A stretch of 64,000 bases of DNA, taken from positions 2,397,501 through 2,461,500 of the forward strand of contig NZ_CP051630.1 of assembly GCF_012848855.1 (NCBI RefSeq), written 5' to 3'. The notes below the pieces were generated by a model that made no database searches, was not told where the DNA came from, and saw only the letters and a program-made list of their open reading frames with translations. The stretch comes from Pyruvatibacter mobilis. GTDB taxonomy: Bacteria > Pseudomonadota > Alphaproteobacteria > CGMCC-115125. Made by a program: the position numbers and the translations under genes. Positions 5,725 to 9,239 of this stretch are shown here, piece after piece; position 1 is the first letter of the stretch, and every line of letters begins with the position of its first letter.

Positions 5725-6561
5725 TTATTCAGCTGCCTGCGCACGCCTGCGGGCTGCCGCGGCCTTGAAGTCCGGCTGGCGCTTGTTGAGGAAGGCATCC
5801 ACCGCCTCATGGTGCTCGGCCATGGACCAGCACTGTTTCAGCGCCTCGGTCTCGCGCCGCTGCACCAATGTCAGGTCATGCTCGGCCAGGTTCTGCGACA
5901 GGAGCTGCTTGGTCATGCGCATCATCGGCTCGGGGTTGTTCTCGAACAGCGCCGCCACCTCGCGCACCTTGTCCCACAGCTGATCTGCCGGCACGGCGTG
6001 GTCGGCGAGGCCAAACTCCGCCACCTCACGGCCCGTATAGAGATTGCCGGAGAGCATCATCTCGCTCGTCTTGCCGAAGCCCATGCGGGCGGTCGCAAAA
6101 TGCGATGACGCCAGTTCCGGCACGATGCCGACCTTGACGAAGACGAGCCCGAACTTGGCGTCCTCGGCGGCAATGATGACGTCGAATGGCAGGATCTGCG
6201 TGACGCCAATGCCGACGGCGGGGCCGTTGACGGCGGCGATCATCGGCTTGGATGAGCGCACCAGCCCGATCCAGTCGAGGCCTTCCGGCAGGCCGCCGGA
6301 GCCGCCCGCGGTGTTCGAGCCGGGATCGGTGCCGTCGAGCCGCGATTTGAAAGTGTCTTCCATGTCGGCCCCGGCGCAGAAGCCGCGGCCCTCGCCGGTG
6401 AGCACGATCACCGCCACCTCGGAATCATCATTGGCGGTGCGGAAGGCATGCGCCATTTCCTCCGCCATGCGCGGGGTCCAGGCGTTGAGCTTGTCCGGCC
6501 GGTTCATGGTGACGACGCCGAGCGTGCCGTCACGCCGATAGGCGATCTGCGTGTAGTCCAT
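5725..6561 (-). CDS. Crotonase-superfamily protein, probably enoyl-CoA isomerase type
   Basis: A 278-aa crotonase-fold protein. The CoA/oxyanion segment RGFCAGADM and the second segment AVNGPAVGIGVT are clear. Relative to enoyl-CoA hydratase the two catalytic glutamates are missing: the first position is Thr (GIGVTQ) and the second is replaced in LVFVKVG. Glu149 in IVPELASSHF lies where delta3,delta2-enoyl-CoA isomerases (ECI2 type) carry their single acid, so isomerase activity on unsaturated acyl-CoA is the better guess. It is first in an operon with the hydrolase at 4524-5702. Confidence 0.82.
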   Translation of the reverse strand: MDYTQIAYRRDGTLGVVTMNRPDKLNAWTPRMAEEMAHAFRTANDDSEVAVIVLTGEGRGFCAGADMEDTFKSRLDGTDPGSNTAGGSGGLPEGLDWIGLVRSSKPMIAAVNGPAVGIGVTQILPFDVIIAAEDAKFGLVFVKVGIVPELASSHFATARMGFGKTSEMMLSGNLYTGREVAEFGLADHAVPADQLWDKVREVAALFENNPEPMMRMTKQLLSQNLAEHDLTLVQRRETEALKQCWSMAEHHEAVDAFLNKRQPDFKAAAARRRAQAAE

Positions 6562-6650
6562 GTCTTCCTCCCGTCACGGGCCCTGTTCTGAGCGGGCTCT
6601 CGTGTGCTTGATCAAAAGTCTAGCAAGCAGGAAGGCGGCGGCAAGCCTTG

Positions 6651-6680
6651 TTCCCCGGCGGGCCGGTTGCCGCCGGGGAA
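6651..6680. terminator. Stem-loop between ferritin-like and crotonase genes
   Basis: A perfect 11-bp stem, TTCCCCGGCGG (6651-6661) with CCGCCGGGGAA (6670-6680) and an 8-nt loop, lies 30 bp after the ferritin-like stop codon on the leftward transcript. No T-run follows, so it may be a stabilising hairpin rather than an intrinsic terminator. Confidence 0.4.
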
Positions 6681-6709
6681 ACGGTCATTTGCGGCGGCAG
6701 GAGACGCTC

Positions 6710-7018
6710 CTAGTGGTCGTCCGGGTGGCTGTGCGGCTTGACGATGGGATCGTCCGTGAACAGACGCTCCTTCATTTCCCTGGCGAAGGTCTCGTTGTTG
6801 CGGCGCAGCCATTCCATCACCATCACCGCATGCTCGATTTCCTCGTTCATATTGTGAATGAGGATCGCCTTGAGATCGGCGTCCGAGCAGCCGTCGGCCC
6901 GCTGGCCATACCAGTCCACAGCCTCGAGCTCCTCCATCAGCGACACGATGGCACGATGCATGTTGAGCGTCTTATCGCTCAGTTTCTCGATGGGTTCGTG
7001 CAGGCCTTCACTGGACAT
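6710..7018 (-). CDS. Encapsulated-ferritin-like (EncFtn family) protein without cargo tag
   Basis: A short ferritin-like protein of 102 aa that aligns by eye with the encapsulated ferritin of Rhodospirillum rubrum. It shares the helix block HRAIVSLMEELEAVDWY and the second metal helix NEEIEHAVMVMEWLRRN. Likely ferroxidase ligands are Glu30, Glu60 and His63, with the Trp36-Tyr37 pair also conserved. Known EncFtn proteins form decamers with the iron site at a dimer interface and carry a C-terminal encapsulin-targeting peptide. Here the chain ends in HSHPDDH with no such tag, and no encapsulin gene lies in the window. Iron oxidation in the cytoplasm is the likely role. Confidence 0.8.
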   Translation of the reverse strand: MSSEGLHEPIEKLSDKTLNMHRAIVSLMEELEAVDWYGQRADGCSDADLKAILIHNMNEEIEHAVMVMEWLRRNNETFAREMKERLFTDDPIVKPHSHPDDH

Positions 7019-7058
7019 AGGGCACTCCGTATTCAGTCAGGGGAGATTGATGCCGTCA

Positions 7059-8150
7059 CTATGCCAGAACCGTCTTGAAGTTTTTACGGGTAATTCGTGG
7101 ATAATCCGGCAGTGCGACAATGCCGCCCAGCCCGGCGCGTGCGAGAAGCCTGTCCGCTGCCTCTTTCGCGTCGCCCTCAAGCCCGCGATAGAAATCAAGC
7201 GGCCGCTGCAGCATCCACAGGTCAAAGGTGAAGATCGCCCGCTCGGCGGTAACGCCGCCCAGGGTGAATTCATGCATGCCCAGCGCGCGGGGGATTTCCG
7301 TGCCCGGCGCCTGGTCGTGCGCCCAGGCGGTGAACGCTGAAACCGTCTTTTCCAGCACCGGCAGATATTCCACAGCAAAGCGCGCCAGCAGCGGGACCAA
7401 CGTCTCCGGCACCACGTCGTCGGGTAGGAAGTCGCCGCCGCGCGGGGCGGGCGGCGTCACCATGCGCTCCACCCAGCGGGCAACGCGCGGGGCGGTCGCC
7501 TTCATCATCTCGCCGGATTTGGGGTCGCGGTAATTATGCGCGTAAAGCGGGCCGATGAGGCCGTAATCACCGACGGAGGGCCGTGAACCGAACAGGAAGT
7601 CATGGGTCTCGAAATGCGCGGACAGCTCTGCCAGCAGCCCCTCGTAGCTTTCCTCCACCGCGCCGCGCGTTTCCGGGTGGACGCCGAGGAAGGGCAGCGC
7701 CCCGCGGAAAGGGCCGGCGCGCTTTTCGCCAATCTCACGCTGGTCTTCGGGCGACGCGTCCGGTGCCGACAGGGCGCCGAACTGGGTGAGGATCCAGTCC
7801 TCATTGTAGTTCCAGCGATAGTGCATCGCCGGGATCTTCATCCATTCATCGCCGAAGACTTCAATCAGCAACGCGGCCAGCTTCTGCGCCGGGCCGGACG
7901 GGTAGACGGACGGCTCGGGCTCTTCGGCCTCGAAATGATCGATGATCTCGGTCGTGTCCTGCAGGGTCTCGTCATCCGCCGTCACCACAACGGGGATCAC
8001 CGGCCAGCCAACACGCGGCAGGATGATCTCCTTGTAGACCTCCGCCGTTGACAGAACTTCCGTATACGGAATCTGCTTCCAGTCGAGATAGGCCCGCGCC
8101 TTGCCGGTATAAAGCGAGATCGGCCCGCCATAGAGCGTGTTGGTCCGCAT
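7059..8150 (-). CDS. Glutathione S-transferase family protein
   Basis: A 363-aa protein with an N-terminal thioredoxin-fold GST domain (about residues 3-80). It shows YTGKARAYLDWKQIPY, the cis-proline stretch VGWPVIPVVV and ETLQDTTEIIDHFE, the usual glutathione-binding SNAIL-like segment. A long helical C-terminal part follows, with HFETHDFLFGSRPSVGDYGL, the conserved GST C-terminal N-capping motif. It is longer than ordinary GSTs (about 220 aa), with roughly 130 extra residues at the C-terminus. An AGGA ribosome-binding site precedes ATG 8150. The 40-bp gap to the ferritin-like gene suggests co-transcription. Substrate unknown. Confidence 0.82.
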   Translation of the reverse strand: MRTNTLYGGPISLYTGKARAYLDWKQIPYTEVLSTAEVYKEIILPRVGWPVIPVVVTADDETLQDTTEIIDHFEAEEPEPSVYPSGPAQKLAALLIEVFGDEWMKIPAMHYRWNYNEDWILTQFGALSAPDASPEDQREIGEKRAGPFRGALPFLGVHPETRGAVEESYEGLLAELSAHFETHDFLFGSRPSVGDYGLIGPLYAHNYRDPKSGEMMKATAPRVARWVERMVTPPAPRGGDFLPDDVVPETLVPLLARFAVEYLPVLEKTVSAFTAWAHDQAPGTEIPRALGMHEFTLGGVTAERAIFTFDLWMLQRPLDFYRGLEGDAKEAADRLLARAGLGGIVALPDYPRITRKNFKTVLA

Positions 8151-8210
8151 GTGATCCTGGTTCCTGTTCGTCAGTATGTGGTGCCCCGGGCATCAGGGAT
8201 TGCCCCATAC

Positions 8211-8302
8211 CCTGTCACCCCGTGGCTTGACCACGGGGTCCAAAGCAACATGGCTCACCGCCCGCCGCCCTGGCTTCCGCGGTCAAGCCACGGAATGACA
8301 GG
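8211..8302. repeat. 92-bp element with terminal inverted repeats
   Basis: The ends CCTGTCACCCCGTGGCTTG and CAAGCCACGGAATGACAGG are imperfect inverted complements, with an internal CGTGGCTTGACCACG hairpin. It lies in the 171-bp gap between two leftward genes. It looks like a small non-coding palindromic element, distinct from but similar in style to module B at 9560, 10700 and 12415. Confidence 0.65.
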
Positions 8303-8321
8303 ACGGGGACGGCACAGCTTT

Positions 8322-9239
8322 TTATTCCGCCGCGCTGGCGGCTTCGACACCCCATTTGATGCGGAAGAACTCGCCGATGCGGCGGTTGGCTTCAGCGGCT
8401 TCGGGCATCATGAAATGGAACATGTGGAAGACGTGCACCATCTCGTCCCAGATCTCGAGCCGCGTTTCCACGCCGGCGGCGCGGGCACGCGTGTCGAGTT
8501 CTTCGGAATCACCCAGCAGCGTTTCATGATCGCCGACCTGAATCAAAAGCGGCGGCAGGCCCTTGAGGTCGGCAAACAGCGGGGAGACCCGCGGGTCCTC
8601 CGCAGGCAGATCACCGCGATAATGCGCTGCCATGGCGAGCAGGCCCTCCTTCTGCACCATCGGGTCCACATCCTTGCGGGTTTCCATGGTGGGCGAGTTG
8701 CCCGTGAGGTCCACCCAGGGCGAGATGGGGGCTGCGGCCGCGGGCAGGGCCACGCCCTTGTCGCGCAGGGCCACCAGCGTGGCAATGGTCAGCCCGCCGC
8801 CGGCGCTGTCGCCCGCAATGGCGAGGTTGGCTGCGTCATAGCCTTCGGCCAGCAAAAACTCATAGGCCGCCACCGCGTCGTCGATCGCCGCCGGGCAGCG
8901 GTCTTCCGGCCCCATGCGGTAGTCGATCACCAGGAGCTTCGCGCCCATTTCCGTCGCCAGCGCGGCCGTCAGAGAGCGGTGGGTCTTGGGCGAGCCGATG
9001 ACATAGCCGCCGCCATGCAGATAGAGCACCGCATGCTTTTCTGACGCGCCGGGCATGGCCACCCACTCGCCAGGCACGCCATTGGCGGTGACGGGGGTAA
9101 TGGTCGCGTCCTCGGGCACCGGAAAGGCAGCCGTGGCCGCTTCCATATTGGCCCGCTGCTGCGCCACAGTCGGCGGCTCCGCCGGCGCCGGGGTGGATGC
9201 GAGCAATTCCAGAACCTGCTTTGCGCCTTCGCTGGCCAT
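8322..9239 (-). CDS. Alpha/beta hydrolase, HSL-family esterase
   Basis: A 305-aa HSL (family IV) esterase. The oxyanion motif HGGGY is at residues 75-79 and the nucleophile Ser145 is in GDSAGGG. Asp lies in VGDHETLLGD, and His lies in the C-terminal MVHVFHMF segment. The start at ATG 9239 is set by a GGGAGAGA ribosome-binding site and by homology beginning at the N-terminal helix; longer open frame upstream is repeat DNA. It is one of three HSL-type esterases in the window. Probably acts on short to medium acyl esters in the cytoplasm. Confidence 0.9.
   Translation of the reverse strand: MASEGAKQVLELLASTPAPAEPPTVAQQRANMEAATAAFPVPEDATITPVTANGVPGEWVAMPGASEKHAVLYLHGGGYVIGSPKTHRSLTAALATEMGAKLLVIDYRMGPEDRCPAAIDDAVAAYEFLLAEGYDAANLAIAGDSAGGGLTIATLVALRDKGVALPAAAAPISPWVDLTGNSPTMETRKDVDPMVQKEGLLAMAAHYRGDLPAEDPRVSPLFADLKGLPPLLIQVGDHETLLGDSEELDTRARAAGVETRLEIWDEMVHVFHMFHFMMPEAAEANRRIGEFFRIKWGVEAASAAE

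Follow-up and report, generated by a model that had tools for sequence, protein, structure and literature searches.

A tagless encapsulated-ferritin-like protein in a genome without a recognized encapsulin, and the peroxide-defence genes near some of its relatives

Does a ferritin-like protein that keeps the ferroxidase site of the encapsulated ferritins (EncFtn), and lacks a peptide for loading into an encapsulin, enter a shell by some other route, or does it work outside one? The question is raised by a 102-residue EncFtn-like protein encoded on the reverse strand at positions 6710–7018 of the window, the whole 64,000-nucleotide stretch of Pyruvatibacter mobilis DNA analyzed here. The first-pass annotation, which had no database searches to draw on, described this protein as an orphan and offered two readings: loading in trans through another partner, or a free ferroxidase. 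Its observation holds as a whole, in that the protein is EncFtn-like, has an intact site, carries no tag and belongs to a genome in which no shell was recognized. As for the two readings, the free ferroxidase, with its predicted activity, is supported, and loading in trans is unlikely.

The gene, its protein and the ferroxidase site

The open reading frame begins with ATG and ends with TAG, and a GGAG resembling a ribosome-binding site lies six bases before the ATG (7025–7028, reverse strand). Its product matches the EncFtn-like profile PF22277 over residues 6–89 with 135.5 bits (E = 5.3e-40; curated cut-off 27 bits). Against TIGR04535 it scores 120.5 bits, under the 125-bit cut-off, with profile positions 1–89 of 114 covered. 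That cut-off is a weak criterion, as two of the five other tagless proteins tried pass it. These two proteins, with neither tag nor shell, thereby receive the NCBIfam name "encapsulin-associated ferritin-like protein".

Identity to two copies from the same genus is 88–89%, with dN/dS of approximately 0.06 (0.069/1.23) and 0.04 (0.069/1.66), values that indicate purifying selection, although dS exceeds 1 in these comparisons and is thus near saturation. The same-genus identity and the low dN/dS together argue that the open reading frame is not a chance one. The gene is present in three of four sampled genomes of the genus, the fourth being 81% complete. The genome from which the window comes is a single contig of 3.33 Mb with a completeness score of 100%; a second EncFtn, for which the first-pass annotation had proposed a search, was not found in it, the single copy lying at 2.404 Mb.

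The ferroxidase residues listed by the first-pass annotation are all in place. In an alignment with R. rubrum EncFtn (5da5), Glu30 (codon 6929–6931), Glu60 (6839–6841) and His63 (6830–6832), all on the reverse strand, correspond to the ferroxidase-centre ligands Glu32, Glu62 and His65; the ligand role of the ferroxidase-centre Glu in R. rubrum EncFtn is given in the available text of PMC5012862. Trp36 and Tyr37 (6908–6913, reverse strand) lie beside the centre. None of the five residues varies among the 158 aligned relatives, of which 144 are untagged and 14 tagged. A single subunit was modeled with AlphaFold from a 30-sequence alignment, for which the sequences were a random draw plus the nearest relatives. 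The model has a mean pLDDT of 89.3 and two helices, residues 15–43 and 47–74, and its best Foldseek matches in the PDB are R. rubrum EncFtn and N. europaea 3k6c. The helices and the invariant residues make this a two-helix PF22277 subunit with Glu/Glu/His ligands. It is not a four-helix cage subunit of the classical ferritin, bacterioferritin or Dps kind, having two long helices in 102 residues, and no PF00210 match was found in it at E up to 0.001.

The protein ends in HSHPDDH (residues 96–102; codons 6713–6733, reverse strand), a tail that is disordered in the AlphaFold model, with low confidence and no helix. As had been noted from the letters, no encapsulin-loading peptide of the GSLGIGSL or LTIGRM type is present. 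In the alignment, tagged homologues run on into a linker and loading peptide; they are 126–138 residues long and extend 25–40 residues beyond the tail of the window protein, ending in GSLGIGSLR, LTIGRMK or similar. The first-pass annotation suggested that this His-rich tail might hold metal. One or more His residues occur from position 87 onward in 120 of 144 tagless proteins versus 3 of 14 tagged ones. Tails with three or more His are uncommon (7 of 144 tagless proteins), and the nearest named relatives, from Parvibaculum, end in IGKD or IGED without a His-rich tail.

With no targeting peptide, no recognized shell gene either adjacent or elsewhere in the genome, and a score below 125 bits, the window protein falls outside the FLP-TP group (TIGR04535). 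It is a member of a large published class, represented by N. europaea NE0167 (PDB 3k6c), whose features it shares: it is short (102 residues against approximately 95), has no targeting peptide and keeps the ferroxidase site. He et al. 2016 (PMC5012862) describe, in the text available, a separate "Non-EncFtn" group without an encapsulin sequence, and a 2024 review (PMC11202242), again as far as its available text goes, names the class "s-FLP". The different use of the fold that the first-pass annotation saw in a free ferroxidase is not new in print, as both of these sources indicate.

Targeting peptide and shell across genomes

No encapsulin gene is present in the 64 kb window, in agreement with the first reading of the sequence; the best match covers 45 residues at 29% identity (E = 0.54). 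The search of the complete genome that had been proposed as a check likewise returned no family 1 or family 2 encapsulin and no HK97 capsid among the 3.33 Mb by the models PF04454, PF19307 and PF05065, the PF19307 control being weak (positive in a single genome of 14, with a score under the cut-off). The shell-free status of the window protein is well supported.

Across a 385-genome sample of the class, an E threshold of 0.001 gave EncFtn matches in 72 genomes, 62 of them strong (E below 1e-30); the tag count does not include the ten genomes whose match is weak (E 1e-6 to 1e-3). Inspection of the C-termini in all 62 gave 13 tagged and 49 untagged proteins, the latter including one (G343) that runs off its contig end. 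Tagless is therefore the commoner form in this sample, and the label "orphan" does not fit. PF04454 was found in 13 of the 385 genomes, which are exactly the 13 with a tagged EncFtn, so that a shell is present with 13 of 13 tagged proteins, adjacent to the EncFtn each time, versus 0 of 49 untagged, in counts that ignore kinship. This split implies that most untagged members in the class have no encapsulin to enter. On a tree built from few columns and with many unresolved forks, three changes of tag state are needed, and only two supported independent contrasts are available, both of which point in the expected direction; same-genome duplicates (L135, L136, L139, L158, L163 and L164) and a protein at a contig end (L096) were left out of it.

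A phylum sample, partly made up of the same genomes, contained an EncFtn over cut-off in 21 of 398 genomes, with 12 weak matches left out of the tag count. Two proteins were tagged, both with a shell, and 19 were untagged, with a shell in two genomes (G425 and G443). The EncFtn of these two belongs to a divergent group, approximately 41% identical to the window protein. A divergent untagged group of that identity (L141–L144) has proteins of 104 residues with Asn at the His55 position; it comes from large alphaproteobacterial genomes, some with a DyP-encapsulin elsewhere.

We also searched the flanks of 80 untagged loci from named genomes, the best of the matches listed for a tagless query, and found no shell in those flanks; the same search finds a shell in 14 of 14 tagged loci. 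Since the loci were found with a tagless query, their taglessness is biased and was not used as a tag count. The untagged protein is widely spread, with 557 of at least 589 pattern-matching stretches listed. Its carriers include Gallionella, Ghiorsea and Nitrosovibrio (L031, L078 and L019), the first two of which are named after iron-oxidizing groups.

Gene neighborhoods and peroxide-defence genes

Directly upstream of the gene, across a 40-base gap, lies a GST-like gene of 363 residues (7059–8150, reverse strand; Pfam GST_N_3 and GST_C_2), for which no NCBIfam match was found. The pair is kept in five of five Parvibaculum loci (gaps of 30–125 bases) and in the two EncFtn-bearing genomes of the same genus. 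Downstream is an enoyl-CoA hydratase/isomerase gene (5725–6561, reverse strand; Pfam ECH_1), a neighbor conserved within the genus, where the order is kept in the loci L099 and L100. No Irr/ICE-like box was found in the window, and no promoter or terminator sites above chance were found at 6450–8450. Upstream of the GST-like gene, at 8211–8302, there is an inverted repeat whose 26-base arms are 88% complementary and contain a CCGTGGCTTGACCACGG core; allowing up to two mismatches, this core occurs at nine genomic places clustered near 3.13 Mb, with three for a backwards control. Three candidate associations were dropped. A GFA-like glutathione-dependent neighbor is close in only two of five loci, an ABC-transporter cluster in 17 loci is ordinary, being scattered in distance and strand, and there is no universal neighbor of untagged EncFtn, most loci having unrelated neighbors.

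Peroxide-defence genes, counted as rubrerythrin/RFO/DUF3501, AhpC-AhpF, TrxB, KatG and catalase, lie within 3 kb of the untagged EncFtn in 16 of the 80 related loci; in the other 64 there is none within 3 kb. In the near flanks (445 kb) 42 of 42 such genes are on the EncFtn strand, and a further 600 kb hold two such genes, a near/far contrast that is descriptive because the families were picked after looking. The rubrerythrin-RFO-DUF3501 operon is involved in 12 of the 16 loci, and in 10 of the 80 the EncFtn gene sits between RFO and DUF3501. One contig (L033) starts at EncFtn with DUF3501 next, and another locus (L042) has the order rubrerythrin, RFO, DUF3501, peroxiredoxin, EncFtn, thioredoxin reductase. 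AhpC, AhpF, EncFtn and KatG follow one another on one strand in an alphaproteobacterial MAG (L057, 1656–5913) and an Emcibacter MAG (L081, 4746–9624); KatG is near EncFtn in L008 and a catalase-family gene in L043. The cluster of the two MAGs is a compact peroxide-defence set with an untagged EncFtn in its middle.

Outside the 80 loci, peroxide adjacency was found in one of 65 untagged class and phylum genomes (L131, with RFO and DUF3501), for flanks of 1.5 kb or more, many of them only approximately 1.5 kb on each side. The peroxide context is genuine for a minority of lineages and is not shared by every carrier; where it occurs, it suggests that H2O2 is the physiological oxidant. An aerobic-type rubrerythrin operon RBR-RFO-DUF3501 was described by Cardenas et al. 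2016 (PMC5114695); the string "encapsul" has no occurrence in the available text of that paper, and a figure there shows an unnamed "HYP" gene. We found no published description of an EncFtn inside this operon.

In the genome of the window the operon stands at another place. IrrA, rubrerythrin, RFO and DUF3501 follow one another at approximately C1:2.8136–2.8169 Mb (L199, 2568–5900), with no EncFtn inside, the window's EncFtn being approximately 0.4 Mb away. The rubrerythrin is 80% identical to that of a related locus (L011). IrrA, which scores over its NCBIfam cut-off, is directly upstream of the three genes on the same strand, a position that suggests iron control of the operon. The class sample contains DUF3501 in 47 of 49 untagged and 10 of 13 tagged genomes, versus 129 of 323 genomes without a strong EncFtn. 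Outside it, DUF3501 was found in three of three alphaproteobacterial untagged genomes, 0 of 9 non-alphaproteobacterial ones, none of the four from the divergent f174 group and 0 of 6 EncFtn-negative genomes. A rough genome-size check gave DUF3501 in 2 of 14 complete EncFtn-negative class genomes among those listed. An obligate link between EncFtn and DUF3501 was dropped, since the class-wide co-occurrence fails outside the class.

Candidate explanations and known systems

Considering the intact site, the missing tag, the lack of a recognized shell and the clean split across genomes, a shell-free ferroxidase is the best account of the window protein. We think it probable that it is decameric and lowers free Fe2+, most likely in peroxide or iron stress. 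In the mechanism that we infer, two-helix subunits would pair to form the di-iron ferroxidase centre, and the pairs would very likely assemble as a ring of ten subunits, as EncFtn does, free in the cytoplasm; 3k6c is reported to form decamers (PMC11202242, available text). Fe2+ would be oxidized with O2 or H2O2, leaving less Fe2+ to react with peroxide, and the Fe3+ would be passed to another store; the genome also encodes a bacterioferritin (over the NCBIfam cut-off) and a Dps-like protein (under it). The most likely setting would be peroxide or iron stress, with the protein as a partner of rubrerythrin-type peroxide defence. Set against this peroxide role is the window's own neighborhood, where the gene adjoins the GST-like and enoyl-CoA hydratase genes and no peroxide genes. 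Against a free form in general, a 2020 review (PMC7762939) states, in the text available, that EncFtn proteins need encapsulins to solubilize mineral, so that EncFtn without a shell could not hold a soluble iron mineral.

Loading in trans through a cryptic targeting peptide draws on the 2024 review (PMC11202242), the available text of which notes that s-FLPs could sterically fit a shell, lists LFTD(E/N)KPIAHE as a putative targeting peptide and treats the tail as unstudied; the two phylum genomes that encode an encapsulin as well as an untagged divergent EncFtn (G425 and G443) also speak for it. In these two genomes, however, the shell adjoins a DyP peroxidase ending in GSLGIGSLKK, away from the EncFtn, which indicates that the shell comes with a tagged cargo of its own. 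Moreover, the tail of the window protein lacks the proposed motif, the nine class and phylum genomes with an exact PIAH tail contain no PF04454, and no shell model matches in the protein's own genome. That a shell occurs in all 13 tagged genomes of the class sample and in none of the 49 untagged ones argues further against the short tail as a cryptic targeting peptide, and we regard this route as very improbable. More improbable still is a shell that the search would have missed, whether a bacterial microcompartment or a capsid of some other lineage: the search covered three models, but no large conserved neighbor recurs beside untagged EncFtn, whose tail is short and varies in sequence. We give the least credence to a remnant, with no function of its own, of an encapsulin system that has been lost. 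Some alphaproteobacterial untagged tails (L137 and L183) do resemble the start of the tagged linker, so that tag loss may have happened, but the site is invariant in 144 of 144 untagged proteins, dN/dS is low and tagless forms are widespread among the stretches listed.

The rival that deserves more weight, though we consider it unlikely, is a dedicated partner, which would donate iron to rubrerythrin, RFO or DUF3501 or accept it from them, or would sense or buffer metal, in place of a bulk ferroxidase. The insertion between RFO and DUF3501, the L131 locus, the frequency of DUF3501 in untagged class genomes and the small open ring without a storage cavity described in the literature would all suit such a protein. 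Many carrier lineages have no DUF3501, as in the non-alphaproteobacterial genomes, and the ferroxidase site is fully kept, both of which speak against a dedicated partner. A broader proposal, which we put forward tentatively and would sooner doubt than assert, is that the widespread shell-less branch of EncFtn may form the iron-oxidizing arm of peroxide defence. It would couple to rubrerythrin-RFO-DUF3501, or to AhpCF/KatG in other lineages, use H2O2 as oxidant and hand Fe3+ on without storing it. If so, the encapsulated form would be one of two uses of the EncFtn fold.

We found no paper on the function of the tagless EncFtn class in the open-licence literature. The available text of PMC7762939 assumes that EncFtn is useful only with an encapsulin and gives the preference for O2 or H2O2 as unknown, and that of PMC11202242 leaves open an encapsulation of s-FLPs by an unknown peptide. 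To the published class the present analysis adds the genome-level split of tag and shell and the adjacency of peroxide genes in 16 of 80 loci. The rubrerythrin and peroxidase neighborhoods give a protein with no assigned function a direct question, namely whether it uses H2O2.

The closest relatives with a solved structure are the encapsulated ferritins of H. ochraceum and R. rubrum and the tagless NE0167 (3k6c). NE0167 has approximately 95 residues, the EncFtn fold, the same ferroxidase residues and no targeting peptide, with 57% identity in the structural alignment and a sequence E of 3.8e-31; the window protein differs in its tail (HSHPDDH), which is a little longer and contains more His, and in the position of its gene behind a GST-like gene. 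EncFtn itself (R. rubrum Rru_A0973 and H. ochraceum Hoch_3836) shares the fold, the ferroxidase ligands and 56–60% core identity, whereas the window protein lacks the linker, the C-terminal targeting peptide and an encapsulin gene, adjacent or distant, that go with EncFtn (TIGR04535). The RBR-RFO-DUF3501 operon accommodates an untagged EncFtn in some relatives and is present in the window's genome, but there the EncFtn stands apart from it. Dps and bacterioferritin likely do the same job, keeping Fe2+ from peroxide; unlike the window protein, they form cages with four helices per chain, and the genome has separate copies of both.
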